A stretch of DNA of 64,000 nt from positions 620,001 through 684,000 of the forward strand of contig NZ_BDMM01000001.1 of assembly GCF_002157625.1 (NCBI RefSeq). The letters run 5' to 3'. Position numbers and translations under genes: made by a program. Positions 34,718 to 51,897 of this stretch are shown piece after piece. Each line of letters opens with the position of its first letter. Position 1 is the stretch's first letter. The notes below the pieces were generated by a model. It saw nothing but the letters and a program-made list of their open reading frames with translations, did not search any database and had not been told where the DNA came from. Origin of the DNA: Brevundimonas sp. SH203. GTDB lineage: Bacteria > Pseudomonadota > Alphaproteobacteria > Caulobacterales > Caulobacteraceae.

Positions 34718-34782
34718 GCGAGGTCTCCCGTGGTGATTATTCTTGTGTCGCCCTTGCTAGCATCGCCTCGCGTGGGTCGATA

Positions 34783-34818: not shown

Positions 34819-34829
34819 GGGGCGAGACG

Positions 34830-35720: not shown

Positions 35721-35819
35721 TGCAGCCTGTGTTTCCAGGGACACGCCTCGAACACAGTTCACCGGGCGATGGAACATCGGCCGCAGTCAAATCTTAATAG
35801 GGCGTAAGCGAGACGCGCC

Positions 35820-36534: not shown

Positions 36535-36537
36535 CGC

Positions 36538-36568
36538 TTGACTCCGTACCATGGTACAGACCCTACAG
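36538..36568 (+). promoter_or_regulatory. MerR-type promoter with 19-bp spacer
   Basis: TTGACT at 36538-36543 and CTACAG at 36563-36568 are separated by exactly 19 bases, the overlong spacer that MerR-family activators correct by untwisting DNA. The spacer begins CCGTACCATGGTAC with a perfect 12-bp palindrome at 36546-36557. TTGACTCCGTAC is the same as the opening of the Tn21/Tn501 mer operator. It drives the glutaredoxin-MauE and copA-copB genes. Confidence 0.8.
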
Positions 36569-36604
36569 AGGGTGCAGCCCGTTGTCAGCCCGTCTGGACC
36601 TTCG

Positions 36605-37351
36605 ATGCCGCATCCCGAAAAGACCGCCACCCTCTATCGGATGGTCATGCCGGACCACGTCTGCCCCTACGGCCGCAAATCCCTGTGGTTGCTGAGGCGC
36701 AAGGGCTATCGGGTCGATGACCGTCACCTGACGACCCGCGCCGAGACCGACGCCTTCAAGGCCGAACACGACGTCAAGACCACGCCCCAGACCTTCATCG
36801 ACGGACAGCGTATCGGCGGCCATGACGATCTACGCCGCTTTTTCGGCCAGACCGTCCCGACGCCGGGACAGACCAGCTATACGCCCGTCCTCGCCGTCTT
36901 CGCCGTCGCACTGCTGATCGCCGCCGCCATCGCCTGGACGCGGTTCGGAACCCTGGCCAGCGGGTCGATCCTGCCCGACTTCATCGCGACGGCCATGTGT
37001 CTGCTGGCGATGCTGAAGCTGCAGGACGTGGAGAAGTTCTCGACCATGTTCCTGAACTACGACCTTCTGGCGCAGAAATGGCCGGGCTACGGCTATGTCT
37101 ATCCGTTCGCGGAACTGGGAGCCGGCGTGCTGATGCTGGCGGGCGCCCTGATCTGGCTGTCGGCGCCGGTCGCCCTGTTCATCGGCGGCGTAGGCGCCGT
37201 GTCGGTGTTCAAGGCCGTCTATGTCGACAGGCGCGAGCTGAAATGCGCCTGCGTCGGTGGGGCGTCCAATGTCCCGCTGGGCTTCGTCAGCCTGACCGAG
37301 AACCTGATGATGATCGCCATGGCGGCCGCCATGCTGGTCATGGCCCATTGA
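36605..37351 (+). CDS. Glutaredoxin-MauE/DoxX fusion membrane protein
   Basis: A 248-residue fusion. Residues 8-85 are a glutaredoxin-like domain with CPYG at Cys20 and the cis-Pro segment 'VKTTPQTFIDGQRIGGHDDL'. Residues 95-248 are a four-span MauE/DoxX-type membrane domain ('LLAMLKLQDVEKF', 'YPFAELGAGVLMLAGALIWL'), with a CxC motif in 'ELKCACVGG' after the third span. Likely passes reducing power across the membrane or inserts disulfides during maturation of copper proteins. An upstream ATG at 36551 lies inside the promoter, so I took the ATG at 36605; no clear ribosome site is seen. First gene of the copper operon. Confidence 0.8.
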   Translation: MPHPEKTATLYRMVMPDHVCPYGRKSLWLLRRKGYRVDDRHLTTRAETDAFKAEHDVKTTPQTFIDGQRIGGHDDLRRFFGQTVPTPGQTSYTPVLAVFAVALLIAAAIAWTRFGTLASGSILPDFIATAMCLLAMLKLQDVEKFSTMFLNYDLLAQKWPGYGYVYPFAELGAGVLMLAGALIWLSAPVALFIGGVGAVSVFKAVYVDRRELKCACVGGASNVPLGFVSLTENLMMIAMAAAMLVMAH

Positions 37352-37377
37352 TGCGCGGCGAAAGGACGGATGATCCC

Positions 37378-39117
37378 ATGACCCAGTCTTTCCTCGACCG
37401 ACGCAGCCTGTTGCGCGGTGTCGCGGCCGGCGGCGGCCTGATGGCGCTGCAGGCCGCCCTGCCCGCCTGGGCCCGGACAGGATCGCCGGGCCTGAGGGCC
37501 GACCTGCCGACCCTGATTGGGCCGAACATCGACCTGACCGTGGGCCATTCGCCGTTCACCGTGGGCGGACGCACGGGCCATGCGGTGACGGTCAACGGAA
37601 CCCTGCCCGCCCCGCTGATCCGGCTGCGCGAGGGCCAGAACGCCCGGCTGACCGTGACCAACACCCTGGACGAGGATACCTCGATCCACTGGCACGGCCT
37701 GCTGCTGCCCTTCCAGATGGACGGGGTGCCGGGCATCAGCTTTCCCGGCATCAAGGCGGGCGAAACCTTCGTCTATGAGTTTCCGGTCATCCAGTCGGGC
37801 ACCTACTGGTATCACAGCCATTCCAACCTGCAGGAGGCGATGGGCCATTACGGCCCCCTCGTCATCGACCCGGCGGGCGCCGATCCGGTCGCCTATGACC
37901 GCGAGCATGTGCTGGTGCTGTCGGACTGGAGCTTCCTGCATCCGCACCAGATCCTGGACAAGCTGAAGAAAAGCCCCGGCTACTTCAATCGACAGCGCAC
38001 CACCTTGTCCGGCCTGATCGACGGCTCGGACCGGATGAGCCTGGAGGAGCGGCGGATGTGGGGGGCGATGCGGATGGACCCGCGCGACATCCTGGACGTC
38101 AACGGCTCGACCTACACCTATCTGATCAACGGCCACGGCCCGCAGGAGAACTGGACCGGCCTGTTCCGCCCCGGCGAGCGGGTGCGCCTGCGCATCGTCA
38201 ACGCCTCGGCCATGTCGATCTTCAACGTCCGCATTCCGGGCTTGGCCATGACCGTGGTCAGCGCCGACGGCGAGAACGTGCGCCCGGTCGAGACCGACGA
38301 GTTCCAGATTTCGGTGGCCGAAACCTATGACGCGATCGTGCGTCCGACCGAGGACCGCGCCTACACCCTCGTATCCGAGGCCATCGACCGATCCGGCATG
38401 GGTCGCGCCACCCTGGCGCCCCGCCTGGGCATGACGGCCGAGGTTCCGCCGCTGAGACCCGTTCCGAACCTGACCATGCGCGACATGGGGATGGGGAGCA
38501 TGGGCGGCATGGATCACGGCGCGATGGATCACGGCTCCATGGATCATGACGCCATGGCGATGCGCAATCCGTCCAAGGCGCCGCCGAACATGGCGGTGGG
38601 CGTCGGCGTGGACATGATCGCGCCCGCCCCCGCCGACCGGCTGGGCGAACGGCCCCTGGGTCTGGAGGACGCGCCGCACCGGGTGCTGGTCTATACCGAC
38701 CTGGTTTCGCTCACCCCCAACAAGGACCGTCGCCCGCCGTCGCGCAGCCTGGAAATCCACCTGACCGGCAATATGGAGCGGTTCATGTGGGGCTTCGACG
38801 GTCGCAAATTCTCGGAACTGGTCGAGCCGATCCGGTTCGAGCGAAACGAGCGGGTGCGCGTCACCCTGGTCAACGACACGATGATGTCGCACCCCATCCA
38901 CCTGCACGGCCATTTCTTCGAACTGGTCACGGGCGGACCCGCCGGGCATCAGCCGTTGAAGCATACCGTCAATGTCGCGCCGGGCTCGAAAGTCACCTTC
39001 GACCTGACCGCCGACGCGCCCGGCGACTGGGCCTTCCACTGTCACCTGCTGATGCACATGCACGCCGGGATGTTCAACGTGGTGACGGTGCGACCGCTGG
39101 ATGGAGCCGCCGCATGA
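37378..39117 (+). CDS. copA: Copper-resistance multicopper oxidase CopA
   Basis: A 579-residue Tat-exported multicopper oxidase (signal 'DRRSLLRGVAAGGGLMALQA'). Copper-ligand motifs are complete: HWHG ('SIHWHGLLLP'), HSH ('WYHSHSNLQEAMGHYG'), 'HPIHLHGHFFEL' and 'HCHLLMHMHAGM'. A Met/His-rich insert 'MGMGSMGGMDHGAMDHGSMD' near residue 370-395 is typical of CopA/PcoA and binds Cu(I) for oxidation. It oxidises periplasmic Cu(I) to the less toxic Cu(II). Ends in an ATGA overlap with copB. Confidence 0.95.
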   Translation: MTQSFLDRRSLLRGVAAGGGLMALQAALPAWARTGSPGLRADLPTLIGPNIDLTVGHSPFTVGGRTGHAVTVNGTLPAPLIRLREGQNARLTVTNTLDEDTSIHWHGLLLPFQMDGVPGISFPGIKAGETFVYEFPVIQSGTYWYHSHSNLQEAMGHYGPLVIDPAGADPVAYDREHVLVLSDWSFLHPHQILDKLKKSPGYFNRQRTTLSGLIDGSDRMSLEERRMWGAMRMDPRDILDVNGSTYTYLINGHGPQENWTGLFRPGERVRLRIVNASAMSIFNVRIPGLAMTVVSADGENVRPVETDEFQISVAETYDAIVRPTEDRAYTLVSEAIDRSGMGRATLAPRLGMTAEVPPLRPVPNLTMRDMGMGSMGGMDHGAMDHGSMDHDAMAMRNPSKAPPNMAVGVGVDMIAPAPADRLGERPLGLEDAPHRVLVYTDLVSLTPNKDRRPPSRSLEIHLTGNMERFMWGFDGRKFSELVEPIRFERNERVRVTLVNDTMMSHPIHLHGHFFELVTGGPAGHQPLKHTVNVAPGSKVTFDLTADAPGDWAFHCHLLMHMHAGMFNVVTVRPLDGAAA

Positions 39118-40118
39118 GCCGCCTTCTCCTCGCCCTGACGCCGCTGGTGCTGGCCGCCGGTGCCGCACAGGCCCTGCCCGTCCCCCAGAGCGCCGATCCG
39201 CATGCGGGTCACGCCATGCCCGCCCCCGTCGATCCCCATGCGGGTCACGACATGGGCAAGATGGAGGCGAAACCAGCGGACCCGCACGCCGGCCATGACA
39301 TGAGCCGGATGGCCGCCCCCGGCGATCCCCACGCCGGTCACGACATGACGGGGATGGGCATGACCGCCCCGACCACCCCGCCGCCCGCCGTCGCCCTGTC
39401 CGGCCCCGCCCATGCCGCCGACACGGTATTCGGCGCCGAGGCCATGGCCGCCTCGCGCCGTCTGCTGGTCGTCGAGAACGGCGATGTCCGCACGACCGCC
39501 CTCGTCATCGACCGGCTGGAAGCGGTCTTCGGCGACGGCGCCGACGCCTATGTCTGGGACGCCCAGGGCTGGACCGGCGGCGACATCCATCGCTTCTGGT
39601 GGAAGACCGAGGGCGAAGGCGACCTGCACGGCCGCCTCCACGAGGCGGAAATTCAGGCTCTCTACAGCCGCGCCATCTCGCCGTTCTGGAACCTGCAGAC
39701 GGGGGTGCGTCAGGATTTTCGCCCCGAAGGCCCGGACACGACCCACGCCGTGCTGGGTCTGCAAGGACTGGCCCCCCACTGGTGGGAGATCGACGCCGCC
39801 GCCTATCTGTCCTCCAAGGGCGACCTGACCGCCAGGGTCGAGGCCGAATACGACCAGCGCATCACCCAGCGCCTGATCCTGCAACCCCGCCTGGAGGCGG
39901 CCCTGTCCGCCCGCGACATCCCCGAACTTCAGATCGGCTCGGGCCTGTCGTCGATCCAGGCGGGCCTGCGCCTGCGCTACGAATTCACCCGCGAATTCGC
40001 CCCCTACCTCGGCGTCGAATGGAGCCGCGCCCTGGGATCGACCGCCGACCTGATCACGGCGCGCGGCGGGGATGCGGACAAGACGCAGGTCGTGCTGGGC
40101 CTGAAGGCCTGGTTCTGA
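39114..40118 (+). CDS. copB: Copper resistance outer-membrane protein CopB
   Basis: A 334-residue CopB/PcoB protein. After a signal peptide, residues 28-78 carry four DPHAGH(A/D)M repeats, a Met/His copper-binding tract, and the rest is a beta-barrel domain ('HRFWWKTEGEGDLHGRLHEA', 'LQIGSGLSSIQAGLRLRYEF', 'LGVEWSRALGSTADL') ending 'VVLGLKAWF', the aromatic C-terminus of outer-membrane barrels. It works with CopA in periplasmic copper sequestration or efflux. Start overlaps copA stop. Confidence 0.94.
   Translation: MSRLLLALTPLVLAAGAAQALPVPQSADPHAGHAMPAPVDPHAGHDMGKMEAKPADPHAGHDMSRMAAPGDPHAGHDMTGMGMTAPTTPPPAVALSGPAHAADTVFGAEAMAASRRLLVVENGDVRTTALVIDRLEAVFGDGADAYVWDAQGWTGGDIHRFWWKTEGEGDLHGRLHEAEIQALYSRAISPFWNLQTGVRQDFRPEGPDTTHAVLGLQGLAPHWWEIDAAAYLSSKGDLTARVEAEYDQRITQRLILQPRLEAALSARDIPELQIGSGLSSIQAGLRLRYEFTREFAPYLGVEWSRALGSTADLITARGGDADKTQVVLGLKAWF
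39195..39347 (+). repeat. Four-copy DPHAGH coding repeat in copB
   Basis: DPHAGHAM at residue 28 and DPHAGHDM at residues 40, 56 and 71, spaced 12, 16 and 15 residues apart. The DNA of each copy is close to GATCCCCATGCGGGTCACGA, consistent with recent local duplication. The ligands (His, Met, Asp) suit Cu(I)/Cu(II). Confidence 0.85.
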
Positions 40119-40139
40119 CCAACTGTCCCCGCGCGACCT

Positions 40140-41717
40140 TCAGCGGCCGACGAGACGAACGGCGCCGTCGCCCAACAGGCTGAAGGCGGCCCATTGAGCG
40201 GGGTGGGCAAAGGTCGGGTCGGATCGGTCGTCCAGCATTTCGAGGGAGGCGCGCTGCAGGGCGTCGGCCACGGCCGCCCGGTTCCGACGGGCCAGGGTCA
40301 CGGTGCGAACGGACAGGCGTTCGGCGACATCGTCGCGAATTCGCCAGTTGGACACCAGCAGCGACCGCGCCCCGGCGTAGAAGAAGGCTCGCGACAGGCT
40401 GTTGACGCCCAGGGCCTGCGGATCGTCCTGGGCCGTGTCGCAGGCGCTGAGGATGACCAGATCGGCCTTCAGCCGCAGTTGCGCCGCCTCGCTGGCCGTC
40501 AAGACGCCGTCGTCCTCTCCCTGTGGCGCGGCGGGCGGGGTGAAGACCAGCGCCGGCTCCCGCAACGCCCCCTCGCCCCCCTCCTTCACCGGCAGGGCGT
40601 GCATGGCGAAGGCGACCACCGAGATGTCGGACAGCGGCGCGGATTTCACGGCGGCCTCCGTCGCCGCCGCGCCCAGCTTCAGATTGCGATCGCCGCCTCG
40701 CATCGCGCGGGACAGGGCGCGAAGCTCGCGGCCCGCACCGGGCAGCGGAGCCAAAGTCTTGGCGACCGACCCGGCGGGATAGGCGGTCATGTCCGCATCG
40801 CCGAACCCGGCGAAGCCCCGGCTGTCGCTGGTGACGGTGCGCTGAACGGCCCTCAGGCTCGTGACCGTGGGCAGGATGGCGAAGGCGTATCGGCGTTGCA
40901 GCCACGCCGTCGCGCGAAGCGCTGCGGGATCGCGATCGTCGCCCGTCGGGGCGGCTGTCACCAGCACCCCGGGCGGAACGGCGCGAAGGGAGCCGTCCGC
41001 CACCACATACACCGTCTGCACCTGCGACAGGCTGTCGGCCACCGGCGCCCACAGCGCCTGATAAAGCCGATACGCCGCCGCGCGGTCGAACCCTGTTCCC
41101 GAGCGCGCAGGGCGTGCGGCGTCGACCGCACCTCGCCCTTCGGCGCCGCCCAGACCCGCTTGCAGACGAGCGGCGTCCGTCGCCACGTCGCCGGCGGTCA
41201 TGTCCGAGCGACGCCAGACCGCGCTGTCCGCCGTCACCGCCCAGACATAGGTGGCCCGGTCCGAGGGCAGGATGACGACCAGACCTTCGCCCGGCTTCAA
41301 CAGGGCCTGGACCGCCGCGACGGACAGCGGCGTGGGATCGGTCAGATCGCCGAATGCCGGATAGACGCTGTCCAGACGGGCGCGCGCCGTCTGCGCCGCC
41401 GTCGTCGCCCGGTCGAGATCGGCGGCGACGCCCCGCGCCCGCTCGGCGGCAGGCGCACCCTGCGACCGCAGCGTAGCCAGCACGGTCTCCAGCGCATGGC
41501 GCGTCTGTTCCGCCGCACGATGGGCTTCGAAGGCGTCTCTCAGACCCGGATCGTCGGCCGCGATGCGAGCCGCGCCGTCGGCGAGCGCCGCCCCCGCGCC
41601 CGGCGCGCCGGCCAGTTGCGCGTCCTCGAACGCGATCTCCAGCGGAGATCGATCCTGTGCGATGACGGGACACGTCCACATCAGGCCGAGCAGGACGGCC
41701 AGAACCCCTGTTCTCAC
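40140..41717 (-). CDS. Exported CHAT-domain (caspase-HetF-associated) peptidase
   Basis: A 525-residue protein. An N-terminal signal peptide (VRTGVLAVLLGLMWTCPVIA, cleavage near AQD) is followed by an Ala-rich helical region (to about residue 165) and a CHAT domain that fills the C-terminal two-thirds. The dyad is visible as His373 in 'VVAFAMHALP' and Cys426 in 'LVILSACDTAQ', with the family closing 'WAAFSLLGDG'. Known CHAT proteins are cysteine peptidases of the caspase clan. No TPR repeats are fused; the TPR protein is encoded divergently 90 bases away. GTG start at 41717 has GGGGGA 6-11 bases upstream. Periplasmic or outside location inferred from the signal peptide. Confidence 0.9.
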   Translation of the reverse strand: MRTGVLAVLLGLMWTCPVIAQDRSPLEIAFEDAQLAGAPGAGAALADGAARIAADDPGLRDAFEAHRAAEQTRHALETVLATLRSQGAPAAERARGVAADLDRATTAAQTARARLDSVYPAFGDLTDPTPLSVAAVQALLKPGEGLVVILPSDRATYVWAVTADSAVWRRSDMTAGDVATDAARLQAGLGGAEGRGAVDAARPARSGTGFDRAAAYRLYQALWAPVADSLSQVQTVYVVADGSLRAVPPGVLVTAAPTGDDRDPAALRATAWLQRRYAFAILPTVTSLRAVQRTVTSDSRGFAGFGDADMTAYPAGSVAKTLAPLPGAGRELRALSRAMRGGDRNLKLGAAATEAAVKSAPLSDISVVAFAMHALPVKEGGEGALREPALVFTPPAAPQGEDDGVLTASEAAQLRLKADLVILSACDTAQDDPQALGVNSLSRAFFYAGARSLLVSNWRIRDDVAERLSVRTVTLARRNRAAVADALQRASLEMLDDRSDPTFAHPAQWAAFSLLGDGAVRLVGR

Positions 41718-41807
41718 GATCTTCCCCCGTTCTCGTCGCCGATCATGCTTGACATCACGGCGTATGGCGAGCGCCATTCTCGGGGTGATGACGGGGATGG
41801 GCGCGTG

Positions 41808-43370
41808 ATGTTTCAACTGATTGGCCTGCTGCTGTTGGGCGCCCAGGCGACGGCGGCCGCCGCCGACACGCCGCGCGAGACCATCCTGTCCGATATTCAG
41901 GCGGCGACGGCGGCGCGCGAAAGCGGCCGGCTGGACGACGCCTTCTCGGCGGCGGATCGCGCCATCGTCGCGGCGCGCGCGATCCGACCCGCCGACCCGG
42001 TTCTGCTGTCCGACGCCCTGGTCGCGCGCTGCGATGCGAGGTCCGGCCAGTCCGAACCCGACATCTCCGACTGTCGCGAGGCGCTTGTGTTGCGTGAAGC
42101 GGCCCTGGATGCGGATGACCCCAAGCTTCACAACCTGCGTATCCAGATCGCGGTCAACACCATCATGACGGGCCAGCCGGCCGAGGCGCAAGGCGTGATA
42201 GAAGCGGCCATCGCGGGCCTGCGCCGCTCCCCCGACACGCCGGCGATGCGAACCGATGTCGGCATGGGGATCGCCGTCCTGGGCATGGCGCAACAGGCGC
42301 AGGATCGGCGTCGCGACGCCGAAGCCAGCTATCGGTCCGCCATCGCGGAACTGACCACGGCCGACGAGACGGGTCAGCGCTATCGTCCGCTGGTCTATAA
42401 TTATCTCAACATCCTGCTGCTGAACGAAGGGCGGCTGATCGAGGCGCTGCAAGAGGCCGAGACCTCGGTGAACATCCAGCGGGCCTCGGCGCCCGCCGGC
42501 GATCCGACCCTGATCGGGGCGCTGAGAGCCTTGGCGGGGGCCCAACAACGCGCCGGGCGGCTGAAGGACGCCGAGCGATCCCTGCGCGAACAGCTTGCCC
42601 TGCTCGACGCCCAGCAGTCGCCCCAGCCTTCGCTCAAGGGCAATGCGCTGGCGGGTCTGGGATCGCTCTATATCGACCTGGGCCGCCCGGAGCTGGCCCG
42701 ACCGTTGCTGGAGCAGGCGGTCGAAACCTATGCCGAAGGCGGCGCCGCAGGACGTCGCACCGCCACCTCGGCGCAAGGGATGCTGGCCGATCTCGACATC
42801 CAGGCCGGGCGGCCGCAAGCGGCGGTCGCGCGTCTCGAAGCCGCCCTGAACGACCTGGGGCTGGAGGTTTCCGGCCAGCAAGGTCGTGCGGCGCTGCTGG
42901 CGCAACTCGCCAGGGCGCACGAGGAGAATGGCGACGACGCCATCGCCGTTCAGCGCGCGCAGGACGCTCTGGACATCTATGCGCGGATCGCGCCACAGGC
43001 CCCGGCGATCTCTGGGCCTCTGCTGATCCAGGCGCGCGCAGACGTCCGCGCCGGGCGTCTCGATCAAGCCCGGACCAAGCTCGACACCGCCGTCGCCGTG
43101 GGCCAGGCCCGACCGCCTTCCGCGCCGACCCGGATCGCGGCGGAAACCGCGCGGGTCGATCTGGCGCTGGCTCAGGTGGGTCCGCTGGACGCCGCCGCTT
43201 CTACGCTGGCGACCGATGCGGCGGACGGGGCGACGGCCCTGATCCTGACCTCCGCGCGCGCGGGCGTTCCCACACAGGGCCTGTCGGCGACGACGCGGCC
43301 GGCCTTCATCAACCGGATAGAGGCGGTGTGGCGACAGGACGCCGCCACGCCGCCGACGCCTCAGCGGTAA
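41808..43370 (+). CDS. Exported TPR-repeat protein, partner of divergent CHAT gene
   Basis: A 520-residue protein with signal peptide MFQLIGLLLLGAQATAAAAD and about eight helical repeat pairs of the TPR type, with consensus Ala/Gly positions ('IGALRALAGAQQRAGRLKDA', 'GNALAGLGSLYIDLGRPELA', 'LAQLARAHEENGDDAIAVQR'). TPR repeats in this setting bind peptides or the CHAT enzyme; in many bacteria TPR and CHAT are one polypeptide, here they are split. The stop overlaps the 3' end of the small exported gene at 43361 by 10 bases, convergent. Confidence 0.85.
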   Translation: MFQLIGLLLLGAQATAAAADTPRETILSDIQAATAARESGRLDDAFSAADRAIVAARAIRPADPVLLSDALVARCDARSGQSEPDISDCREALVLREAALDADDPKLHNLRIQIAVNTIMTGQPAEAQGVIEAAIAGLRRSPDTPAMRTDVGMGIAVLGMAQQAQDRRRDAEASYRSAIAELTTADETGQRYRPLVYNYLNILLLNEGRLIEALQEAETSVNIQRASAPAGDPTLIGALRALAGAQQRAGRLKDAERSLREQLALLDAQQSPQPSLKGNALAGLGSLYIDLGRPELARPLLEQAVETYAEGGAAGRRTATSAQGMLADLDIQAGRPQAAVARLEAALNDLGLEVSGQQGRAALLAQLARAHEENGDDAIAVQRAQDALDIYARIAPQAPAISGPLLIQARADVRAGRLDQARTKLDTAVAVGQARPPSAPTRIAAETARVDLALAQVGPLDAAASTLATDAADGATALILTSARAGVPTQGLSATTRPAFINRIEAVWRQDAATPPTPQR

Positions 43371-43717
43371 CGATATTCGCTGATGCTGCAGACGTTGACG
43401 CGCTCGCGGACCAGCACGTCGCCGTCGGCGAAAACGGCCTTGAAGTCGAAATAGCATTCGCCGGTGCCGTCATCGATATTGATGCGCACCGACCGGCCGG
43501 GACGCAGCACGTCATTGCCCAGGATGTCTTCTTCCCAGTCGTCGGCGTCGACGCTGGAAGCGTAGAACTGGGTCATCGTCACCCGCGTATCGTTGATGAT
43601 GCGGACACGTCGGTCGGCGCCGGCGCCCGCCGAGGCCGGCGCAGCGACGCCCAGCGTCAGGGTGGCCATGGCGGCGGCCATACCGATGGCGCGGATGAAG
43701 CTTTTACGGTTGATCAT
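43361..43717 (-). CDS. Small exported beta-rich protein, conserved hypothetical
   Basis: A 118-residue protein. The signal peptide 'FIRAIGMAAAMATLTLGVAA' leads into a compact domain: 'RIINDTRVTMTQFYASSVDA', 'DDWEEDILGNDVLRPGRSVR', 'NIDDGTGECYFDFKAVFADG' and 'VNVCSISEYRY'. Two cysteines probably pair. This unit recurs as a conserved hypothetical in alphaproteobacteria with no known function. The start at 43717 has GAGGGA 9 bases upstream. It could be a substrate or modulator of the neighbouring peptidases; that is only inference from position. Confidence 0.8.
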   Translation of the reverse strand: MINRKSFIRAIGMAAAMATLTLGVAAPASAGAGADRRVRIINDTRVTMTQFYASSVDADDWEEDILGNDVLRPGRSVRINIDDGTGECYFDFKAVFADGDVLVRERVNVCSISEYRYR

Positions 43718-43835
43718 GATGGTTTCCCTCTCCACGGACGCCGATGCGACGTCGTTGAACGCAGAGTGGATCAGACCGGCGCCCGGCCCCACTTACCGTC
43801 GCCGTAAGATCGGCGAACCCATCTGACATTTCCCG

Positions 43836-45575
43836 TCATGGCAGGACGACGATGGGGAAGGCGACGGCCATGGACGCCTGACCGGGCGGCGGCCCCAGGG
43901 CGGCGCCGCGCCGCGACCGGCCGTCCAGAGCATCTGCCAGCCAGGCTGACAAGGAGGCAGGCTCATAGCCGGGTTCGCCTCTCGCGCCGGGGCGGCTCGA
44001 CATCTCGGCCAGATACCGCAAGTCGGCGGGAAAGCGCGTCGCGGCCGGCACGGCGAGGACCGCCAGTCGTTCCACGACCACGTTCCGCTCCGCAACGATC
44101 CGAAGCGCGGCGCTGCGCTTTTCTCCGGGCGCCAGCCGGACGGTGTCGGTCGGATGCAGACTCGGTCCGATGACGGTTCCGTCCGCCGACAGATAGAGCA
44201 GATTCACATCCAGCGTCGCCCGGCCGGTATTGGCCATCTCGATATACAGCCGGTCGCAGGCCCTCAAACCCGGCAAAACGAACAGGGACACCTTTTGGGC
44301 CGTTGGCGGCGGCGCCGCCGCATCGACCGCATCGCCGCACCGATCCGCCGACGGCCGGTCAAGTCTGGCGCCGACCGACAAGCCGTCCGGCGCCCAGCCG
44401 CCGCCCAAGGCCGCGATGGCCGCCGCCACGCGCTCCGCGGGCGACCTGGATTGATCGGGCGACGAAACGGCCCGCGCCGCCACTGCCCCGGACGGCGCCG
44501 CGTCCAGCCCCGACCGCCCGATGCCCGCCGAGGTGACACGGCCATAGCCCAGAACCGACTGGTCCTCGCCTTCCAGAACGACGCGGTCGCCGGAAACGAC
44601 CCCCTCCTCCAATCCCGCCGCCAGCGTGATGTCCGCCCCCCGACGCACGACGGCGAACCGCCTCTGGCGCCCTGGCGTCAGGTCCAGAACAGGACTGTCC
44701 ATATCGCCCTCGAAGACCGGACGCGGCGCGTCAGGCCCCAGCCGACCGTCGGCGGACAGAAGGCCCGCCGCCAGATCGCGCAGACTGCGGGTGCGCCCGG
44801 CGTCCAGACTGCGGATCAGGGCGTTGGAGAAGACCGAGCCCCTGTCGGTCGCCAGGGCAAGACCGCCATCGCCAGCCGCATAGAAGCCGACGAAGCGTCC
44901 CCCTGGCTGTTGGGAATCTACAGCGCCGAACCCGGGTTCGCCTGTCTCGAAACTGTCCGAACCGCGTCGTCCGGCCCCGCCGCGCGACACGGTCTTGGCC
45001 TGGGCGCCCGGCGCCTCCCGCCCTCTGGTCACGCCGGCGGCGTAGCAGGCGTCCACGACCAGCCAGACATCGACGCCCCGCGCGCGCAGGCGGGCGACAG
45101 CCGCCGCGATCTCATGATCCGCGATAAAACCGCCGTCCGGCTGTCCCTGTGCGTTCAAGGTGGCGTCTGAAGCGAGCCAGACCTCCTCCAGCCCATCCGG
45201 TTCCTGCGACCCCGGCGCCGCCGGCCGCTGCCCGCCGTGCCCGGAGAAGTAGATCAGCACCCGATCGTCGGCCCTGGCCTGCGCCTCCAGCGTCGCCAGC
45301 CGTTCAAGAATGGCGGATCGGCTGGCCCCGGCCGGACTGTCGTCATCGGAGATCGTCTCGATCCCCGCCTCGCCGAGCCCTGCAACCTTCAAGGCCCGAC
45401 CAAGGCGCGCAACGTCCTGTTCAGGCGCGGCGAGACGAAACTCCGACGGCAGATCACGATACCGCCCGACGCCGATCAGCAGCGCCCGGCTCTCGGCGCT
45501 CGCCGCATTCGCGCCGGCCCACAGCCCCAGGGCCAGCAGCAGTCCGAGGCTCGCGGGGCCTCTAGTTCGTGCCAT
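43836..45575 (-). CDS. Exported caspase-like peptidase (C14 family)
   Basis: A 579-residue protein. Signal peptide 'GLLLALGLWAGANAASA' is followed by a caspase-fold domain: 'RALLIGVGRYRDLPSEF', catalytic His113 in 'LIYFSGHGGQ' and Cys177 in 'VVDACYAAGVTRG'. Residues 300-365 look like a small beta-domain, and the C-terminal region ('KVSLFVLPGLRACDRLYIEM', 'GTVIGPSLHPTDTVRLAPGE') is a DUF4384-like beta-sandwich often joined to bacterial caspases. Substrate cleavage after Arg/Lys is usual for metacaspases but not provable here. Its start overlaps the upstream gene by 14 bases. Confidence 0.92.
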   Translation of the reverse strand: MARTRGPASLGLLLALGLWAGANAASAESRALLIGVGRYRDLPSEFRLAAPEQDVARLGRALKVAGLGEAGIETISDDDSPAGASRSAILERLATLEAQARADDRVLIYFSGHGGQRPAAPGSQEPDGLEEVWLASDATLNAQGQPDGGFIADHEIAAAVARLRARGVDVWLVVDACYAAGVTRGREAPGAQAKTVSRGGAGRRGSDSFETGEPGFGAVDSQQPGGRFVGFYAAGDGGLALATDRGSVFSNALIRSLDAGRTRSLRDLAAGLLSADGRLGPDAPRPVFEGDMDSPVLDLTPGRQRRFAVVRRGADITLAAGLEEGVVSGDRVVLEGEDQSVLGYGRVTSAGIGRSGLDAAPSGAVAARAVSSPDQSRSPAERVAAAIAALGGGWAPDGLSVGARLDRPSADRCGDAVDAAAPPPTAQKVSLFVLPGLRACDRLYIEMANTGRATLDVNLLYLSADGTVIGPSLHPTDTVRLAPGEKRSAALRIVAERNVVVERLAVLAVPAATRFPADLRYLAEMSSRPGARGEPGYEPASLSAWLADALDGRSRRGAALGPPPGQASMAVAFPIVVLP

Positions 45576-46263
45576 AGGCGTATCGGTTGGCGGCGGCGCC
45601 GAGATTGCGGACCTCCACCTGATAATCTCCGGGTTCGTGCGCGGTCCAGGCGCACAGCTTGACGTCGCCGGGCCCGGCCGCCTGACACACCATCCCCTTG
45701 CCGGCCTTGACCGTCACGGCCAGCGGCGCGTCGCCGTCCCCCTCGACATAGACGACCGCCGGCCGGCCCGGCGCGAACCGCTCGCGAAAGACATGGGCCT
45801 GTCCCGCCGGCAGACGCGCCAGCGAAACCAGCGGCCCGCCCGTTCGCCCCTTGTATTCCTGGGCCCGGATCGCGGCGATGAAGGCCAGGACCTGGGCGTC
45901 GCCCTCGGCCAGCATCTGCGCCTCGTCCAGCCAGACCTCGGCGATCTGAGGCCAGGTTCCTTCGTCCGACGGATCGACCGCCCCGCCCGGCGACGCGGGT
46001 TCGGCCGGTTCCGATTGCGCCGTGCGAACCGGCGCCGCCGTGGACAGCCGCAGCCGCGCCGCCGTCGCCAACAGCCAGGGATCGCCCCGCTCCCGCCCCA
46101 GACGCGCCAGACGGGCGGACAACTCCAGCGTCTCGAACGGCGCAGCCGCCGCCTCGGTGGCGGCGTCCACCTGAAGGGCGGGCGCGGACAGGGCTTGCGC
46201 CACGGTTGGTCCGACGACCGAACCGGACGACAGGACAGCCAGACAAAGCGTGCGAAAGAGCAT
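45562..46263 (-). CDS. Exported protein upstream of and coupled to the caspase gene
   Basis: A 233-residue protein with signal peptide 'LFRTLCLAVLSSGSVVGPTV' and a mature part of two sections: an N-terminal Ala-rich helical region ('TLELSARLARLGRERGDPWL') and a C-terminal beta domain ('HVFRERFAPGRPAVVYVEGD', 'LCAWTAHEPGDYQVEVRNLG') resembling a small pre-peptidase/bacterial beta-sandwich. Two cysteines (MVCQ, KLCAW). It overlaps the caspase start by 14 bases, so the two products are likely partners, perhaps inhibitor or scaffold. No family recognised for the whole protein. Confidence 0.78.
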   Translation of the reverse strand: MLFRTLCLAVLSSGSVVGPTVAQALSAPALQVDAATEAAAAPFETLELSARLARLGRERGDPWLLATAARLRLSTAAPVRTAQSEPAEPASPGGAVDPSDEGTWPQIAEVWLDEAQMLAEGDAQVLAFIAAIRAQEYKGRTGGPLVSLARLPAGQAHVFRERFAPGRPAVVYVEGDGDAPLAVTVKAGKGMVCQAAGPGDVKLCAWTAHEPGDYQVEVRNLGAAANRYAYGTN

Positions 46264-46363
46264 TGTTCTTCTTGCCTCAAACTCGGCGACCATCGCAACT
46301 TACGAGCCTTGTCAGCCCCGCCCGGCCGCCTCGCCGTCTAGAAGGGAGCCGAAGGAGCCAGCG

Positions 46364-47053
46364 ATGCGCATACTCTTGCTAGAAGACGACGGCGACGCCG
46401 CCGACCGCGTTCGCGCCGCGCTCGCCGACGTGGCCGATCTGGACCTGGCGTCGGAAACCACGGTCGCCGCCGCCGTGAAGACGGCCGCCGCCAAACCCTT
46501 CGACGCCCTGATCCTGGACCGCATGGTCGAGGACGGAGACGGGCTGGACGGATTGGCCCAGCTGCGCGCCCTGGGCGTCCGCACGCCCGCGCTGGTTTTG
46601 TCCAACCTCGGCGCCACCCGGCACAGGGTGGAGGGGCTGGACGCCGGCGCCGACGACTATCTGGTCAAACCGTTCGAGGCGGAAGAACTGGTCGCCCGCC
46701 TGCGCGCCATGCTGCGACGCAGTTCCACTCGGGGCCACCCCGAGGTGTTTCTGCTCGGCGAACTGGAGGTTCGGGTCAAGGCGCGCACCGCCCATTGGAG
46801 CAATCGCCACCTCGACCTGTCGCCAAAGGAGTTCGACATCCTGGCCTTCCTCGCCGCCAATCACGATCTGGTCGTCTCGCGCCAGATGTTGTGGGACGCC
46901 TGCTGGCCCGAGTATCGGATTCCGCCTCAGATCAACGTCATCGACGTCAATCTGTCGCGCCTGCGCGCCAAGATCCATTCGGTCGCGGGCAAGCCCCTGA
47001 TCGAGACCGTTCGCGGCCAGGGCTTCATGCTCTCGGACGGCGCCGCCGCGTGA
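46364..47053 (+). CDS. OmpR-type response regulator
   Basis: A 229-residue response regulator. Receiver domain residues 1-115 with phospho-acceptor Asp52 in 'ALILDRMVEDGDGL', acidic pair Asp8-Asp9 ('LLLEDDGD') and Lys in 'DDYLVKPFEAEEL'. A winged-helix DNA-binding domain follows ('LSPKEFDILAFLAANHDLVV', 'NVIDVNLSRLRAKI'). The ATG has GAAGGAG 7 bases upstream. It is divergent from the caspase-operon promoter, so it is well placed to control it. GTGA overlap with the kinase gene. Confidence 0.94.
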   Translation: MRILLLEDDGDAADRVRAALADVADLDLASETTVAAAVKTAAAKPFDALILDRMVEDGDGLDGLAQLRALGVRTPALVLSNLGATRHRVEGLDAGADDYLVKPFEAEELVARLRAMLRRSSTRGHPEVFLLGELEVRVKARTAHWSNRHLDLSPKEFDILAFLAANHDLVVSRQMLWDACWPEYRIPPQINVIDVNLSRLRAKIHSVAGKPLIETVRGQGFMLSDGAAA

Positions 47054-48426
47054 TCGGGGCGCGCAAAGCCAACGCTCGCCCCCGACGCGCCTCGGCCGTC
47101 GCACGCCTGTCCCTCGCCTATGCGGTCGTGTTCATCGTCATATCGGCCCTGTTCTTCGCGGGGGCCATGCATTTGGTCGCCCAGAAGAACCGCGAACGCC
47201 TGCAGTCGCTGGTGTTCGCCGACAGCCGCGCGTTGAAGGCGAAGATCGACGAGGCCCCGGCGGCGCTCCGTCTCGACATCGCCCGCGCCATCGTCGGCGC
47301 GCGGATCGCCCAGGGCAAGGATCGCGTCCAGTATGCGCTGGTCACGCCGTCGGGAGAATGGTCCGGCAATCTGTCCGCCTCCGACGTCAAGGTCTCGCGC
47401 GGCGACCGACTGACCCTGACCACGCGCGGCTGGCTCTCGGTCGCGGCGATCGACCGCGTCGATCTGGGTCAGGGCGGCTACATCCTGCTGGGCCGAACAC
47501 AGGACGAGGCGGGGCTGGAGCGGGACGTCATGGGCGTGGGCCTGCTGGCCCTGGCGCTGGCCGGCTTCGTCGCCTTCGTCATCGGCCCGATGGCCAGCTT
47601 ACGGCTGGTTCGCCGGGTCGAAGCCGTCAACCAGGCCTGCGAAGCCTTCGGCGCCGGCGACCTGACCGCCCGCGCGCCGGGCGCAGGGGCGTCGGACGAG
47701 TTCGGCGCCCTGGCCCGCTCGGTCAACGCCATGTTCGAACGCATCGACGATCTGGTGGGCGGGCTGCGGGAAGTGTCGAACCAGGCCGCGCACGACCTGC
47801 GCACCCCGATCGCGCGCCTGCGCTCCGACCTCGACACGGTCAGGGCCGCCGACACCCTCGACCAGGCCCGCACGGCGGCCGAGGCGGCGATCGCGGAGAC
47901 CAACGCCATACTGGAGACGTTCGACGCCCTGCTGGACCTCGCCGAAATCCAGGCGGGATCGACCGTGGTCCTGTCTCCTGTCGACCTGTCGCTCATCGCC
48001 CGACAGGCGGCCGATCTTTATCGCCCTGTCGCCGAGGACGCCGGGATCGCCCTGGTGCTGGACCTGAACCCGGCCCATGTCACCGGCGAACAGGCCCTGC
48101 TGATCCGCGTCGTCGCCAATCTGCTCGACAACGCCATCAAATATTGCCCGCGCGGCTCCACCGTGTGCGTCAGCGTCAAGCCGGTCGAAACCGGCGTCGA
48201 ACTCGCGGTTTCAGACGATGGCCCCGGCGTGCCGGCGGCCGCCCGTAACGACTTGCTCAAACCGCGTGTGCGCGGCACGACTTCGTCTCCCGGCCTCGGC
48301 CTTGGACTGGCCCTGGCAGCCGCCGTCGCCGCCAGACACGGCGCCGACCTGCAACTCGGCGACGGCCCGCAGAACCGCGGCCTTCGCCTATCGCTGACCT
48401 TCGCGCCAACCGATCCCGTCGCCTGA
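47050..48426 (+). CDS. Sensor histidine kinase, partner of the response regulator
   Basis: A 458-residue membrane kinase. Two spans (about residues 20-44 and 162-180) bracket a periplasmic sensor of some 115 residues; HAMP domain to about 238; phospho-acceptor His248 in 'AAHDLRTPIARL'; N-box 'VVANLLDNAIKYC'; G1 'VSDDGPGVP'; G2 'SPGLGLGLALA'. The periplasmic sensor could detect the exported peptidase products or envelope damage. Translationally coupled to the regulator by a GTGA overlap. Confidence 0.94.
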   Translation: MIGARKANARPRRASAVARLSLAYAVVFIVISALFFAGAMHLVAQKNRERLQSLVFADSRALKAKIDEAPAALRLDIARAIVGARIAQGKDRVQYALVTPSGEWSGNLSASDVKVSRGDRLTLTTRGWLSVAAIDRVDLGQGGYILLGRTQDEAGLERDVMGVGLLALALAGFVAFVIGPMASLRLVRRVEAVNQACEAFGAGDLTARAPGAGASDEFGALARSVNAMFERIDDLVGGLREVSNQAAHDLRTPIARLRSDLDTVRAADTLDQARTAAEAAIAETNAILETFDALLDLAEIQAGSTVVLSPVDLSLIARQAADLYRPVAEDAGIALVLDLNPAHVTGEQALLIRVVANLLDNAIKYCPRGSTVCVSVKPVETGVELAVSDDGPGVPAAARNDLLKPRVRGTTSSPGLGLGLALAAAVAARHGADLQLGDGPQNRGLRLSLTFAPTDPVA

Positions 48427-48551
48427 AGCCGGCGACTGACTCGTCTAAGACAGGCCTGTCTCATCGTCTCCCTTATTCATATCGCTTGGAAACCAGCACC
48501 GTAATCGACAAGCGCTCCGGCAGCGGCCTAGCCGCAGAAGCGTAGTCGAAT
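48427..48551. other. Convergent gap with a perfect 14-bp palindrome
   Basis: AGACAGGCCTGTCT at 48448-48461 is an exact palindrome between the kinase gene and the convergent TonB receptor gene. No T-run follows, so a terminator role is unproven. GC drops visibly to the right of this point. Confidence 0.5.
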
Positions 48552-51053
48552 TCAGTAGCGGAAGCTCGCCTGCAGCATCACTTCGCGGCCGCGGGCCACA
48601 TAGCCGCGCTGCTCGCCGATCGTCCCAGGGATGCTTGCGCCGCCGGTTCGGTCCATTCCGTACTGCAGATAGTATTCATTGGTGAGGTTCCGACCGATGA
48701 GGGCAAGTTGCCACCGGCCGTCTTCCGTCGCCATCGTAGCGCTGGCGTTGAACCGGAAGAAGCCATCCTGGAAGGTGCTGGGAGCCTTGGTGTCGGAAGC
48801 CCAGTAGCTGCTCGTGTAGAAGACGTCCCCGGTAAGGCCATAGATCATACCCCCTCGCGGCACGCTGAGATCAAAGCCGGCGTTGCCCGAAAAGTCCGGC
48901 GAGCGACCCGGCACACGCCCATCCTGATCCTGTTGCAGAGTGAGCGCCGTAGCGTTCACGAAAGAGCAGTTGGGAGGCGGCACGGCCGTCGCCCGCGTCG
49001 TGCCCGTGGGGAAGGCATAGGCGTAGCAGGGCCCGACATAGTCCGCGAAACGGTTGTGGACGTAGGTCCCGGCCGCATGGAGGGTCAGGTATTGGTTGGC
49101 GTTGTAATTCAGTTCGATATCGAGGCCGCGCTGCTTCATTGCGCCGGCGTTCCCCACCACGAACGCCACGCGAGCAGGATCGAAGGCGTTCACTTGAAGA
49201 TTGTCGAAGTCGTAGAAGAATAGCGCGCTGGTCACACGCAGCGGGCCGAAGCGACCCTTCGCACCGATCTCGCCGCCCTTGACTTCCTCGGACGTGAAAT
49301 CGAGATCGCCGATCCGCGTGGCTGCAGTGGCCAGGCCAGACGTGAATCCGCCCGACTTGAAGCCTGTCTTATAGGCCGCATACAAGGTCTGGTTTGGAGC
49401 GGGATGCCAGGTCAGCGTGACTTCGGGAGAGAAGTTGTTCTCCTCATAGGAGCCATTCAGGACGCCGGGCTCGCTTTCGCCCGGGAAGGTCACCCCCACG
49501 ACGTTGAAGGCGCCGAAGCCGTAGTTGACCCGCTGATGGTGCGTCTTGCGCTCATTGGTGTATCGACCGCCGACCGCGAACTCCAGATCGGGGACGATCT
49601 TGTAAAGCAGTTGGCCGAAGGCCGACACCGCCCTGCCATCCTGCTGGACGCTGGTATCGGTCGTCGTCACGCGGTTGTTCGCCGGATTGAAGTAGGCGTA
49701 CCCGAGGCTGATGTCCTGGTGCACGCGTCTCGAAGTGTCTTGATAATAGAGGCCTGCCGCAAAGTTCAGCTTGCCGCCGAAGTCGCTGACGACCCGGATT
49801 TCCTGGCTGAACTCCTTGATCTCATCATCCTCGGTGGCGAAAAGCTGCGAGAACGAGGTGTTATCGAGGCCGTAATCCGAATTGAACTGATTATGGTTGA
49901 AGCCGGTCAACGACGTCCAAGTCAGCGGACCCTGATCGTAGGACATATTGAGGGACACCGATTGGAAGTCCGTCGCCCCGTAGTTTCTCCCGTCCCCACG
50001 GCTGTTCGGCAGCGCAGCACCGACAGCCGCCGGCAGATCGCCATTGGTCATGTGATTGTCGATGCGGCATTCGCCGAACGGATCCGCCACGCCATACATT
50101 CTCGGCGCGCTGCCGGTGCACGGTCCGATGTTCTGTCCACTCGCGCCAGCGCCGTCGTCCCGATAGCGATCTGCGAACAGTTTTAGAGTCGCCTGGAACG
50201 GGCCATCCGGCGTGTAGGCCAAGGTCAGGCGGCCTAGGAGTTCGGTATTGCCCGAGCGCGCGTTGTGCGCGCCCGGCAAGGTCGCGAACCCGGCGGGCAT
50301 GGTCGCTGGATTATAGAACGGGTTCGGCGCTTCGCGAGAATCGTTGAAAAGCCATCCTGCGAGGTCACGGTAGCGAGCCGCCAAGCGGAAGCCGAAGTCC
50401 TTGCCCAGGGGGCCGGAGACCGCCGCTTCGCCAATCCACTCCCGTCCGCCGAATTCGTAGCCAAGGCTCCCCGATGCCTCCAAGGTGTCCGTCGGTCCCC
50501 GCGTCGTCACCGCGATCACGCCCGCCGGGCTGTTCTTGCCGAAGAAGAGAGCCTGCGGCCCCTTCATGAACTCGATCTGCTGCACATCGAAGATGCCGAT
50601 CTGAGCGATCTTGCCGTTGCTGGTCTGAACGCCGTCAAGAGCGACCGACACGCTTTGTTCGAACCCCACGACGCCGGAAGGCGAACTGACACCGCGGATG
50701 GCGATTGATCCGCCACCCGAGGACCTGGAATTGGCGATGATCACGGAGGGAACGACTTCCGCCAGTTTGGGCAGGTCCGTTGCGCTGGCGCGGGCCAGCG
50801 CGGCGCCCCCAATCGCAGTCACAGCGACGGGGACGTCCATGAGGTTCTCGGCGCGGCGGCGAGCGACCACGACGATCTCGTCCACGGAGTTGACTTCAGG
50901 CTCAGTCGTAACCTGAGCATCGGCTTGAGCATTGGAGGGAATAGACGGCGTCGCGCTTGAGGATTGAGCCTTTGATGCGTCGGCGCACGCTGTAGAAGCG
51001 ATCACCACCGCTCCGGCCAATAGCCAATTTTTAAAACTCATTCCCTGCAGCAC
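48552..51053 (-). CDS. TonB-dependent receptor of the catabolic island
   Basis: An 833-residue receptor. Signal region 'NWLLAGAVVIASTACADA', TonB box 'VDEIVVVARRRAENLMDVPV' (IVVxARRR type), plug with 'GSIAIRGVSSPSGVVGFEQS' and 'EFMKGPQALFFGKNSPAGVI', and a barrel ending 'MLQASFRY'. This IVV.A.RR receptor type is the one used for xenobiotics, steroids and terpenoids in sphingomonad-like bacteria, so its ligand is more likely hydrophobic than sugar. GTG at 51053 with GGGAGG 7 bases upstream; ATG at 51041 is possible. An inverted repeat shared with the MFS gene lies about 80 bases upstream. Confidence 0.93.
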   Translation of the reverse strand: MLQGMSFKNWLLAGAVVIASTACADASKAQSSSATPSIPSNAQADAQVTTEPEVNSVDEIVVVARRRAENLMDVPVAVTAIGGAALARASATDLPKLAEVVPSVIIANSRSSGGGSIAIRGVSSPSGVVGFEQSVSVALDGVQTSNGKIAQIGIFDVQQIEFMKGPQALFFGKNSPAGVIAVTTRGPTDTLEASGSLGYEFGGREWIGEAAVSGPLGKDFGFRLAARYRDLAGWLFNDSREAPNPFYNPATMPAGFATLPGAHNARSGNTELLGRLTLAYTPDGPFQATLKLFADRYRDDGAGASGQNIGPCTGSAPRMYGVADPFGECRIDNHMTNGDLPAAVGAALPNSRGDGRNYGATDFQSVSLNMSYDQGPLTWTSLTGFNHNQFNSDYGLDNTSFSQLFATEDDEIKEFSQEIRVVSDFGGKLNFAAGLYYQDTSRRVHQDISLGYAYFNPANNRVTTTDTSVQQDGRAVSAFGQLLYKIVPDLEFAVGGRYTNERKTHHQRVNYGFGAFNVVGVTFPGESEPGVLNGSYEENNFSPEVTLTWHPAPNQTLYAAYKTGFKSGGFTSGLATAATRIGDLDFTSEEVKGGEIGAKGRFGPLRVTSALFFYDFDNLQVNAFDPARVAFVVGNAGAMKQRGLDIELNYNANQYLTLHAAGTYVHNRFADYVGPCYAYAFPTGTTRATAVPPPNCSFVNATALTLQQDQDGRVPGRSPDFSGNAGFDLSVPRGGMIYGLTGDVFYTSSYWASDTKAPSTFQDGFFRFNASATMATEDGRWQLALIGRNLTNEYYLQYGMDRTGGASIPGTIGEQRGYVARGREVMLQASFRY

Positions 51054-51132
51054 CGTATCGCCTCCCGTATTATTGCGCAGTCATTTCGACACGCTTATCG
51101 ATTGACGCTACGGAAGCCGAAGAATGTTGTCA

Positions 51133-51161
51133 GTCCCGGCAAATAGGGACACCACGACTGT
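51133..51161. promoter_or_regulatory. Candidate operator A: GTCCC-N8-GGGAC upstream of TonB receptor
   Basis: GTCCCGGCAAATAGGGAC at 51133-51150, continued by ACCACGACTGT. The same core with an 8-base spacer and the flanks TCA and A recurs at 55681-55702 before the MFS gene, and AGGGACACNACGNCTGT is shared with 55651-55667. Position 80-97 bases before the receptor start suits an operator. Confidence 0.7.
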
Positions 51162-51212
51162 GAAATCTCCGGGGTGCTTTAGGCCTTTGCCCTATCGCTT
51201 CCTTGCCCGCCA

Positions 51213-51713
51213 CTACTTGCCCGCCAGGAGCGCCTCAAGAGCGGGCGCATCCGTTGTATTGGATAGTCCAGAAGCGGCGAACCAGGACCGCTCGAGACGA
51301 GCCTGATGACGGGCATGTTCCAGAATGGCCGTCCGAGCGCCCTCGTTCGAAAGCAAACCCCCGGCCTCTTCGATAAGGCGCTCGATCGCCAGTCCCAGGC
51401 TCTGGGTCACAGACCTCATCGCCCCAAAGTCGGCGTGATCAACCAGGCGGGCGGAGTCGCGACCTCTGACGACCTCTTCAGCCGGGTCATCAGTCGCCGC
51501 CAAAAGGGCGTCCGCAAGGTCGACCAGGTATCGGAGCTCAAGGGCGGCGACCTGAGGGATGTACCGCCACTGCGTTTCTAGAACCTTGAGATGCCCAATC
51601 GCGATCTCGGCCTGCTCGATCGCCAACCTTTGGTCAGCTGGCAGTGCGGGAACGATGACCTGTTCGAGCGCCTTGGCGACACTGCGAAGCCTTGTATCGA
51701 TTGATGGAACCAC
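51213..51713 (-). CDS. Hypothetical helical protein of the catabolic island
   Basis: A 166-residue, mostly helical cytoplasmic protein: 'SIDTRLRSVAKALEQVIVPA', 'LPADQRLAIEQAEIAIGHLK', 'GLAIERLIEEAGGLLSNEGA'. The opening 'VAKALEQVIVPALP.DQ..A' resembles small proteins encoded beside ACAD10-type phosphotransferase genes (DUF6285-like). The GTG at 51713 has GGGAG 10 bases upstream and begins where that similarity starts; a GTG at 51875 would add 54 residues that do not look protein-like. Role unknown; it may assist the phosphotransferase encoded opposite. Confidence 0.65.
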   Translation of the reverse strand: MVPSIDTRLRSVAKALEQVIVPALPADQRLAIEQAEIAIGHLKVLETQWRYIPQVAALELRYLVDLADALLAATDDPAEEVVRGRDSARLVDHADFGAMRSVTQSLGLAIERLIEEAGGLLSNEGARTAILEHARHQARLERSWFAASGLSNTTDAPALEALLAGK

Positions 51714-51897
51714 CGACGCTCGCTCCCTCGCTGTTCCGCCAGGTCGGTCCAGCATAGCCGACAGCGCAGTGGTTAGCCCGGACAGCCACTTCGACGCAGT
51801 CCTATGCGACAGGGACAGCCCGCAAAGGAGCTGTCGGCTATCAAGCCGTTGTGTTCGGCGCGTTCGAGAACTCACATCCCGAAGCCTAGGAATCCCG

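Follow-up and report, generated by a model that had tools for sequence, protein, structure and literature searches.

The seven adjacent genes at positions 40140-48426 of a 64,000-nucleotide stretch of Brevundimonas sp. SH203 DNA (contig NZ_BDMM01000001.1; the whole stretch is referred to here as the window) are proposed to form a two-component-linked extracytoplasmic protease system. They code for a CHAT-domain peptidase, a TPR protein, a 118-residue protein (small118), a C14 peptidase of the metacaspase type, a 233-residue protein (p233), a response regulator and a histidine kinase. That the seven genes form a module is well supported by comparison with related genomes, and they are read as a single transferable unit; the functional reading, of which the mechanism and the purpose are inferred, is given a probability of about 0.48. 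The features of the block are listed below (aa, amino acids; bp, base pairs).

40140-41717, minus strand: CHAT-domain cysteine peptidase, leader-bearing (predicted export), 525 aa, GTG start, dyad His373/Cys426, without a TPR part
41808-43370, plus strand: TPR protein, leader-bearing (predicted export), 520 aa, divergent from CHAT
43361-43717, minus strand: small118, leader-bearing (predicted export), 118 aa, family-invariant cysteines C88 and C110
43836-45575, minus strand: metacaspase-type C14 peptidase, leader-bearing (predicted export), 579 aa, His113/Cys177, beta-rich C-terminal region
45562-46263, minus strand: p233, leader-bearing (predicted export), 233 aa, helices, then a PPC/GOLD-like C-terminal domain of eight strands that carries two conserved cysteines
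46264-46363, no strand: divergent intergenic region between p233 and the regulator, 100 bp, carrying the conserved block TCGCAACTTACGA at 46293-46305
46364-47053, plus strand: OmpR/PhoB-type response regulator, 229 aa, Response_reg and Trans_reg_C
47050-48426, plus strand: membrane histidine kinase, 458 aa, predicted periplasmic sensor at about residues 45-160, HAMP, HisKA and HATPase_c

The coordinates and Pfam families of this cluster agree with a first-pass annotation of the same DNA, and the catalytic residues of both peptidases are the ones it had named. In Pfam, the CHAT peptidase matched PF12770 at 4.6e-48 (164.6 bits against a cut-off of 24), the C14 peptidase PF00656 at 2.8e-11 (44 bits against a cut-off of 21.4), the TPR protein TPR_12 at 1.3e-15, and the regulator both Response_reg (3e-17) and Trans_reg_C (3.1e-19). 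The scan of the seven window proteins gave no match over the cut-off for small118 and p233, and found neither a STAND/MoxR NTPase nor a secretion or surface-assembly family among the seven. A defence-gene library returned single-component matches only, for example “caspase” and RT-protease. Three gene pairs overlap (p233/C14 by 14 bp, regulator/kinase by 4 bp and the convergent TPR/small118 pair by 10 bp), while the pairs CHAT/TPR and p233/regulator are divergent. Because of these orientations the block represents at least four transcription units and not one operon. No sigma-70 promoter consensus was found, and the two terminator-like sites are fewer than the shuffle mean.

The closest named match for the block is B. 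vesicularis NBRC 12165, to which window positions 40137-48426 align as a single 8318-bp alignment with 81% nucleotide identity. The match to Brevundimonas sp. G8 (locus L033) covers window positions 40159-48151, and that to a third relative (L034) covers 43361-48161, the L034 contig ending inside the block. Outside the block, the window is matched by none of these three; the right edge of the block is supported mostly by L033 and L034, the B. vesicularis stretch past the kinase being just 349 bases long. Gene order is kept for 7/7 genes in B. vesicularis (L032) and L033, and in L034 for 5/7 genes up to the contig end, with CHAT on a separate contig of the same genome; L108, taken to be that CHAT contig, also bears part of the TPR gene. 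The CHAT-side neighbours of the block in B. vesicularis, sp. G8 and sp. ASV9 match the SH203 genome at C1:15.9-18.8 kb, while the block is located near C1:660 kb, approximately 645 kb away, which indicates that either the block or the sequence around it has moved. No repeats longer than 9 bp were found at the block edges, so that no mechanism of mobility is apparent. All seven genes are under purifying selection, with ratios of nonsynonymous to synonymous substitution (dN/dS) against B. vesicularis that range from 0.02 for small118 to 0.19 for C14. The TPR protein is 85% identical to its B. vesicularis counterpart and 75% identical to that of sp. G8.

Within the genus the close set is rare: a close C14 orthologue was found in 4/131 genomes, SH203 included. 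Members of the two peptidase families as such are more common (CHAT in 49/131 genomes, C14 in 47/131), and they occur within 10 kb of each other in eight genomes, again including SH203, compared to 0.25 expected by random placement, an expectation that is uncorrected for relatedness and uses a C14 list drawn by similarity to the window protein. More distant clusters of p233, CHAT and C14 were identified in four further genomes of the genus (L035-L038) and in six genomes from a different family within the order (L073-L078), two of which were matched to Glycocaulis and Oceanicaulis records. In one of the genus genomes, two TPR-CHAT genes and a C14 gene are followed by a CHASE2 membrane protein and a further protein that matches no Pfam family (L035:14633-16632).

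A query of genome contigs with the whole C14 protein alone returned no relatives, and loci were obtained instead with a CHAT alignment, taking one genome per species: the best 80 of 543 gave 79 loci, nearly all of them titled Alphaproteobacteria. Among these 79 loci C14 was present in 31, p233 in 19, both in 17, a regulator in 23, a kinase in 24 and, with one query, an HtrA-type protease in eight. In the order, 56 genomes had a p233 match (many of them weak) and loci were fetched from 22 of them; for the 24 genomes with a small118 match, 12 loci were fetched. All fetched loci together contain 54 distinct genes of the p233 family, of which 45 have CHAT and 38 have C14 in the locus, while 21 have an opposite-strand regulator at most 3.5 kb upstream, at times with HtrA in between. 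Nine p233 loci are without CHAT, of which two lie at contig ends (L034 and L105), one has regulator and kinase only (L090), and the others are L080 and L084-L088. In some relatives TPR and CHAT are fused in one protein, and the separate TPR protein pointed out in the first-pass annotation is not a general trait. A kept neighbourhood was supported: the order is complete in two relatives and the C14/CHAT/p233/regulator association extends to the wider loci. The set is rare in the genus, and related modules are largely found outside Caulobacteraceae. Among 72,556 plasmid records C14 was matched in 55 and CHAT in 147, all below 60% identity; one of these was opened, and the module content described below refers to that one only. 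No CHAT match was found in phage records.

Both peptidases keep their catalytic residues. The His/Cys dyad of C14 is intact in 54/54 homologues, while that of CHAT is invariant in 7/7 and present in 116/119 members of a wider set, the rest being alignment gaps; some genomes are counted twice in these dyad counts, because two collections overlap. The C14 family profile matches solved metacaspases (4f6o at 2.4e-35, 4af8 at 5.7e-24). Its structural model, with a mean confidence (pLDDT) of 73.5, resembles Arabidopsis metacaspase 4 (Z 25.9, root-mean-square deviation 2.6, 223 aligned); its matches to metacaspases and MALT1 span residues 25-305 only, so that no fold is assigned to the C-terminal region. 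For CHAT, comparison by sequence with solved structures gave no match at the limits used. Asp54 and Asp175 of C14 are present in 26/26 sequences and aligned with the yeast metacaspase motifs; they are presumably the acidic S1 residues that confer Arg/Lys specificity in metacaspases, and the enzyme is predicted to be Arg/Lys-specific. In a 2012 survey, 75% of the alphaproteobacterial metacaspases were reported to have their dyad intact (PMC3501461), compared to which the present branch looks more strictly catalytic.

Sequence reading revealed an N-terminal hydrophobic leader with a plausible cleavage site in all five non-regulatory proteins, in line with the first-pass annotation, and localisation outside the cytoplasm is predicted on this basis. 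With a leader test that is a crude heuristic and not SignalP, leaders were assigned to 46/46 C14, 98/109 CHAT and 32/52 p233 homologues, and to 8/41 regulators; the support is good for C14 and CHAT and weak for p233. Conserved cysteine pairs outside the active sites, which fit an oxidising compartment, are found in small118 (17/17 in the family) and p233 (21/22 and 22/22), and the C-terminal cysteines of C14 are kept in 8/8 near relatives. The contrast that had been drawn with known CHAT and caspase systems as purely cytoplasmic proved too strong, as exported metacaspases were already suspected in the survey mentioned above, which suggests that helices at the N-terminus of prokaryotic metacaspases may serve as signal peptides and classes 30 sequences as extracellular (PMC3501461).

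The block carries its own two-component system facing the p233-C14 genes. The periplasmic sensor of the kinase is predicted from sequence and hydropathy, with two hydrophobic stretches flanking roughly 115 residues. Between p233 and the regulator, the 13-bp block TCGCAACTTACGA is identical in 4/4 orthologues from four species. The sensing loop earlier suggested to connect the kinase with the caspase promoter is unproven: the conserved block is present, but in the rest of the window its motif occurs no more often than expected by chance. In three other loci (L089:9601-10278, L090:10261-10962 and L106:9405-10046) members of one gene family are located close to p233; the L089 member has a LuxR-type GerE match that is weak and falls slightly below the cut-off, and control may differ between branches.

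An annotated complete set is present in one stretch of pDSM107133_h, a 65-kb plasmid of Pseudosulfitobacter sp. DSM 107133, in the order caspase, p233-type protein, HtrA-PDZ protease, regulator, kinase, patatin, second caspase, chymotrypsin-type protease, 904-aa TPR protein, second p233-type protein and CHAT, where “p233-type” is a reading of protein ends and not a scored match. These products start with leaders (that of the patatin with a lipobox), except for the regulator, the kinase and HtrA. Directly after CHAT, a CcdA/CcdB toxin-antitoxin pair was observed on this plasmid (L186:18344-18859).

Two further exported candidates, a chymotrypsin-fold (S1A) protease and a patatin, were found in 16/79 and 14/79 CHAT loci, respectively. 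In 16/16 S1A proteins the activation site has a basic P1 residue (Arg in 11, Lys in 5) before an I/V-I/V/L-G/N-G motif. Residue 189, for which we assume the chymotrypsin numbering and its role in specificity, is Thr in 11, Gly in three and Asp in two; among the 16 proteins, those of L118 and L129 are closely similar. The 14/16 proteins without Asp should therefore not cut after Arg/Lys themselves, and another exported protease would have to cut the zymogen. Given its two aspartates and its alignment with metacaspases, C14 is the natural and probable candidate for this activation, although HtrA or CHAT could act instead. Among 15 patatin open reading frames a clear lipobox was found in 11, the remaining four including one fragment, one cut by the locus edge and one doubtful case.

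In the compact Brevundimonas block, small118 is the slowest evolving of the seven genes, with dN 0.011 and dS 0.517 against B. vesicularis and identities among relatives of 97, 91 and 91%. No PDB match was found for it by sequence at the limits used. The only fetched loci that combine it with CHAT and C14 are the seven-gene Brevundimonas blocks (window, L032/L109, L033/L107 and L034), whereas its paralogues elsewhere are apart from the module and mostly near dnaK. These paralogues (G000:C7:49919-50194, i.e., L093:9820-10203, and L094, L096-L101, L103 and L104) have dnaK and dnaJ nearby in 10/12 fetched loci, in nine of them directly divergent from dnaK, and represent an uncharacterised, predicted-exported neighbour of the DnaK locus. 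For p233, the model (mean pLDDT 78.5) comprises four helices and eight strands. Its top Foldseek matches, tied at E 2.8e-5, are a pre-peptidase C-terminal (PPC) domain (TMt 0.73) and a GOLD domain (TMt 0.74), and the VIA comparison gave the C-terminal domain of the subtilase Tk-SP (Z 13.0, root-mean-square deviation 1.7, 88 aligned) and GOLD domains (Z 12.1), barely covering residues 1-80. At sequence level the PPC domain PF04151 gave no match in the window p233 and matched 3/31 relatives (best E 0.022), while comparison with solved structures returned mostly designed helical proteins.

Taken in decreasing order of certainty, the proposed mechanism would start with the kinase sensing an envelope signal, upon which the regulator would act at the divergent p233-C14 promoter. 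C14, as a predicted Arg/Lys cutter, and CHAT would then work outside the cytoplasm, in the periplasm or at the surface, with the TPR protein and p233 serving to hold or gate them. Finally, the peptidases may act serially on other exported proteins. In the larger relatives the likely target would be the S1A zymogen with its Arg/Lys activation site, and the lipoprotein patatin phospholipase would be the likely end effector on membranes; in the compact branch to which the window belongs, small118 is the best candidate substrate or ligand. The purpose is probably an inducible response to envelope attack by phage, predator or toxin, and not housekeeping, in view of the patchy distribution of the unit, its relocation as a block and its presence on a plasmid in at least one relative. 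Defence, stress and processing roles are indistinguishable by sequence, and it is these same three properties that favour a role in conflict. A more far-reaching version, which we consider speculative and unlikely, is that of a mobile, two-component-triggered extracytoplasmic zymogen cascade of Alphaproteobacteria resembling complement or clotting, in which exported metacaspase and CHAT would activate exported S1A by cutting after Arg/Lys and the chain would end in a patatin that attacks membranes, either those of the host itself or those of the invader, with small118 replacing the zymogen in Brevundimonas.

Several observations weigh against the protease system as proposed. The background of the leader heuristic is high (170/600 mixed open reading frames), just 32/52 p233 homologues pass it, and the plasmid HtrA as annotated has no clear leader. 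In the wider set the C14 C-terminal cysteines are kept in 20/26 sequences per position, so the pair is not general. The p233/regulator motif has one exact occurrence in the window and elsewhere is no more frequent than by chance; the regulator pair is missing from many loci, and a regulator-like gene of another kind stands beside p233 in three clusters. As loci were picked by CHAT or p233 similarity, their counts describe this subfamily. No C14 is near CHAT in 48/79 CHAT loci (some of them on short contigs), and CHAT, C14, regulator and kinase are all absent from the p233 loci L080 and L084-L088. The window block itself has no S1A or patatin gene, and a search of the SH203 genome for S1A was empty, which is weak evidence. 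PPC and GOLD domains score alike for p233. The specificity roles given above to Asp54/Asp175 and to residue 189 count here as well, being assumptions of ours.

Of the alternatives, an envelope protein quality control system, i.e., an inducible stress response and no conflict system, with the peptidases degrading damaged exported proteins in the manner of DegP/Cpx-type systems, is the most serious one, and we hold it to be possible but rather unlikely. An OmpR-type pair with a predicted periplasmic sensor would suit such a role, as would the HtrA-PDZ protease near the regulator in relatives and the dnaK neighbourhood of the small118 paralogues. It is less easily reconciled with metacaspases and zymogen activation, which cut specifically and not in bulk, and the presence in 4/131 genomes, the block relocation, the plasmid-borne set and a lipoprotein phospholipase would be unusual for housekeeping. 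Processing of specific exported proteins such as small118 for surface assembly, as performed by gingipains and other clan-CD enzymes, would account for the very strong conservation of small118 and for a p233 domain resembling the PPC type found on secreted proteases; we find this improbable, as the fetched loci show small118 beside the module in the seven-gene Brevundimonas blocks alone and in none of the remaining CHAT/p233 clusters, and no secretion or surface-assembly family is among the seven.

That the peptidases are cytoplasmic, and the block a caspase/CHAT conflict system of the usual sort whose N-termini were misread, is suggested by the high leader background and by the cytoplasmic location of the best-known caspase and CHAT effectors. 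It is made very improbable by the leaders on every C14 and most CHAT homologues, the cysteine pairs in small118, p233 and, less widely, the C14 C-terminus, the lipobox on the patatin partner and the lack of a STAND/MoxR NTPase among the seven. As for chance neighbours without a common function, the four or more transcription units and the convergent TPR/small118 pair would be compatible with it, but the gene order kept in relatives and the co-occurrence across families largely refute it, and hardly any weight is left to this explanation.

Bacterial caspases and CHAT peptidases have mostly been studied as cytoplasmic death or defence enzymes. The pairing of TPR and CHAT recalls type III-E CRISPR, from which the module differs by having the two on separate genes and by leaders that predict export. 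This system was considered and rejected: no CRISPR-like array was found in window positions 34000-54000 (one 3-copy coding repeat), no Cas family is among the seven proteins, and TPR and CHAT are unfused. No gasdermin family was found in the Pfam scan of the seven proteins or in a PADLOC scan of five, the sensitivity of these libraries to bacterial gasdermins being unchecked. Gingipains, clostripain and legumain are likewise caspase-fold cysteine peptidases outside the cytoplasm, but belong to other families, and we know of no CHAT partner or dedicated two-component system for peptidases of this type. The complement and clotting cascades of animals likewise use an exported S1A zymogen whose Arg/Lys activation site has to be cut by another protease; here, by contrast, the initiator would be a metacaspase or CHAT and the effector a patatin lipoprotein.

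Also close are the prokaryotic metacaspases or orthocaspases, which share the fold, the His/Cys dyad and the aspartates at metacaspase positions, and of which some are suspected to be exported and some are located in operons with proteolysis or signalling genes; the main text of that survey contains the words “CHAT” and “two-component” zero times and describes no exported CHAT/p233/two-component partnership (PMC3501461). The NTPase-centred conflict systems likewise use caspase- and trypsin-type peptidases and pair caspase with an alpha/beta hydrolase, but caspase and trypsin are described as mutually exclusive in them (PMC7159879). In the larger versions of the present module both peptidase classes occur together; the parts have leaders and a kinase-regulator neighbour, the seven window proteins include no STAND/MoxR NTPase, and C14 is accompanied by a DUF900 alpha/beta hydrolase in some clusters and by patatin in others. 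The DUF900 hydrolase was observed as an addition beside the CHAT genes in L073-L078 and L091, which echoes the caspase/alpha-beta-hydrolase pairing reported for those systems (PMC7159879).

The peptidase families are already known and exported metacaspases had been suspected earlier, while no description of the CHAT/C14/p233 combination, of the regulator pair that goes with it or of its extension by S1A and patatin was found in the open-access literature searched, preprints and most subscription papers being outside that search. If the proposed reading is true, the intact catalytic set, the leaders and the sensor pair, together with the S1A zymogen and the phospholipase of the relatives, would represent a bacterial counterpart of extracellular protease cascades. 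The role of alphaproteobacterial metacaspases would then become directly testable, as the unit is small and portable, its trigger and cleavage sites are predicted, and one example is plasmid-borne.

Finally, to the left of the block, at window positions 39180-39347, a three-copy His/Asp/Met-rich coding repeat was observed in a gene that was named copper-resistance-like from sequence reading.

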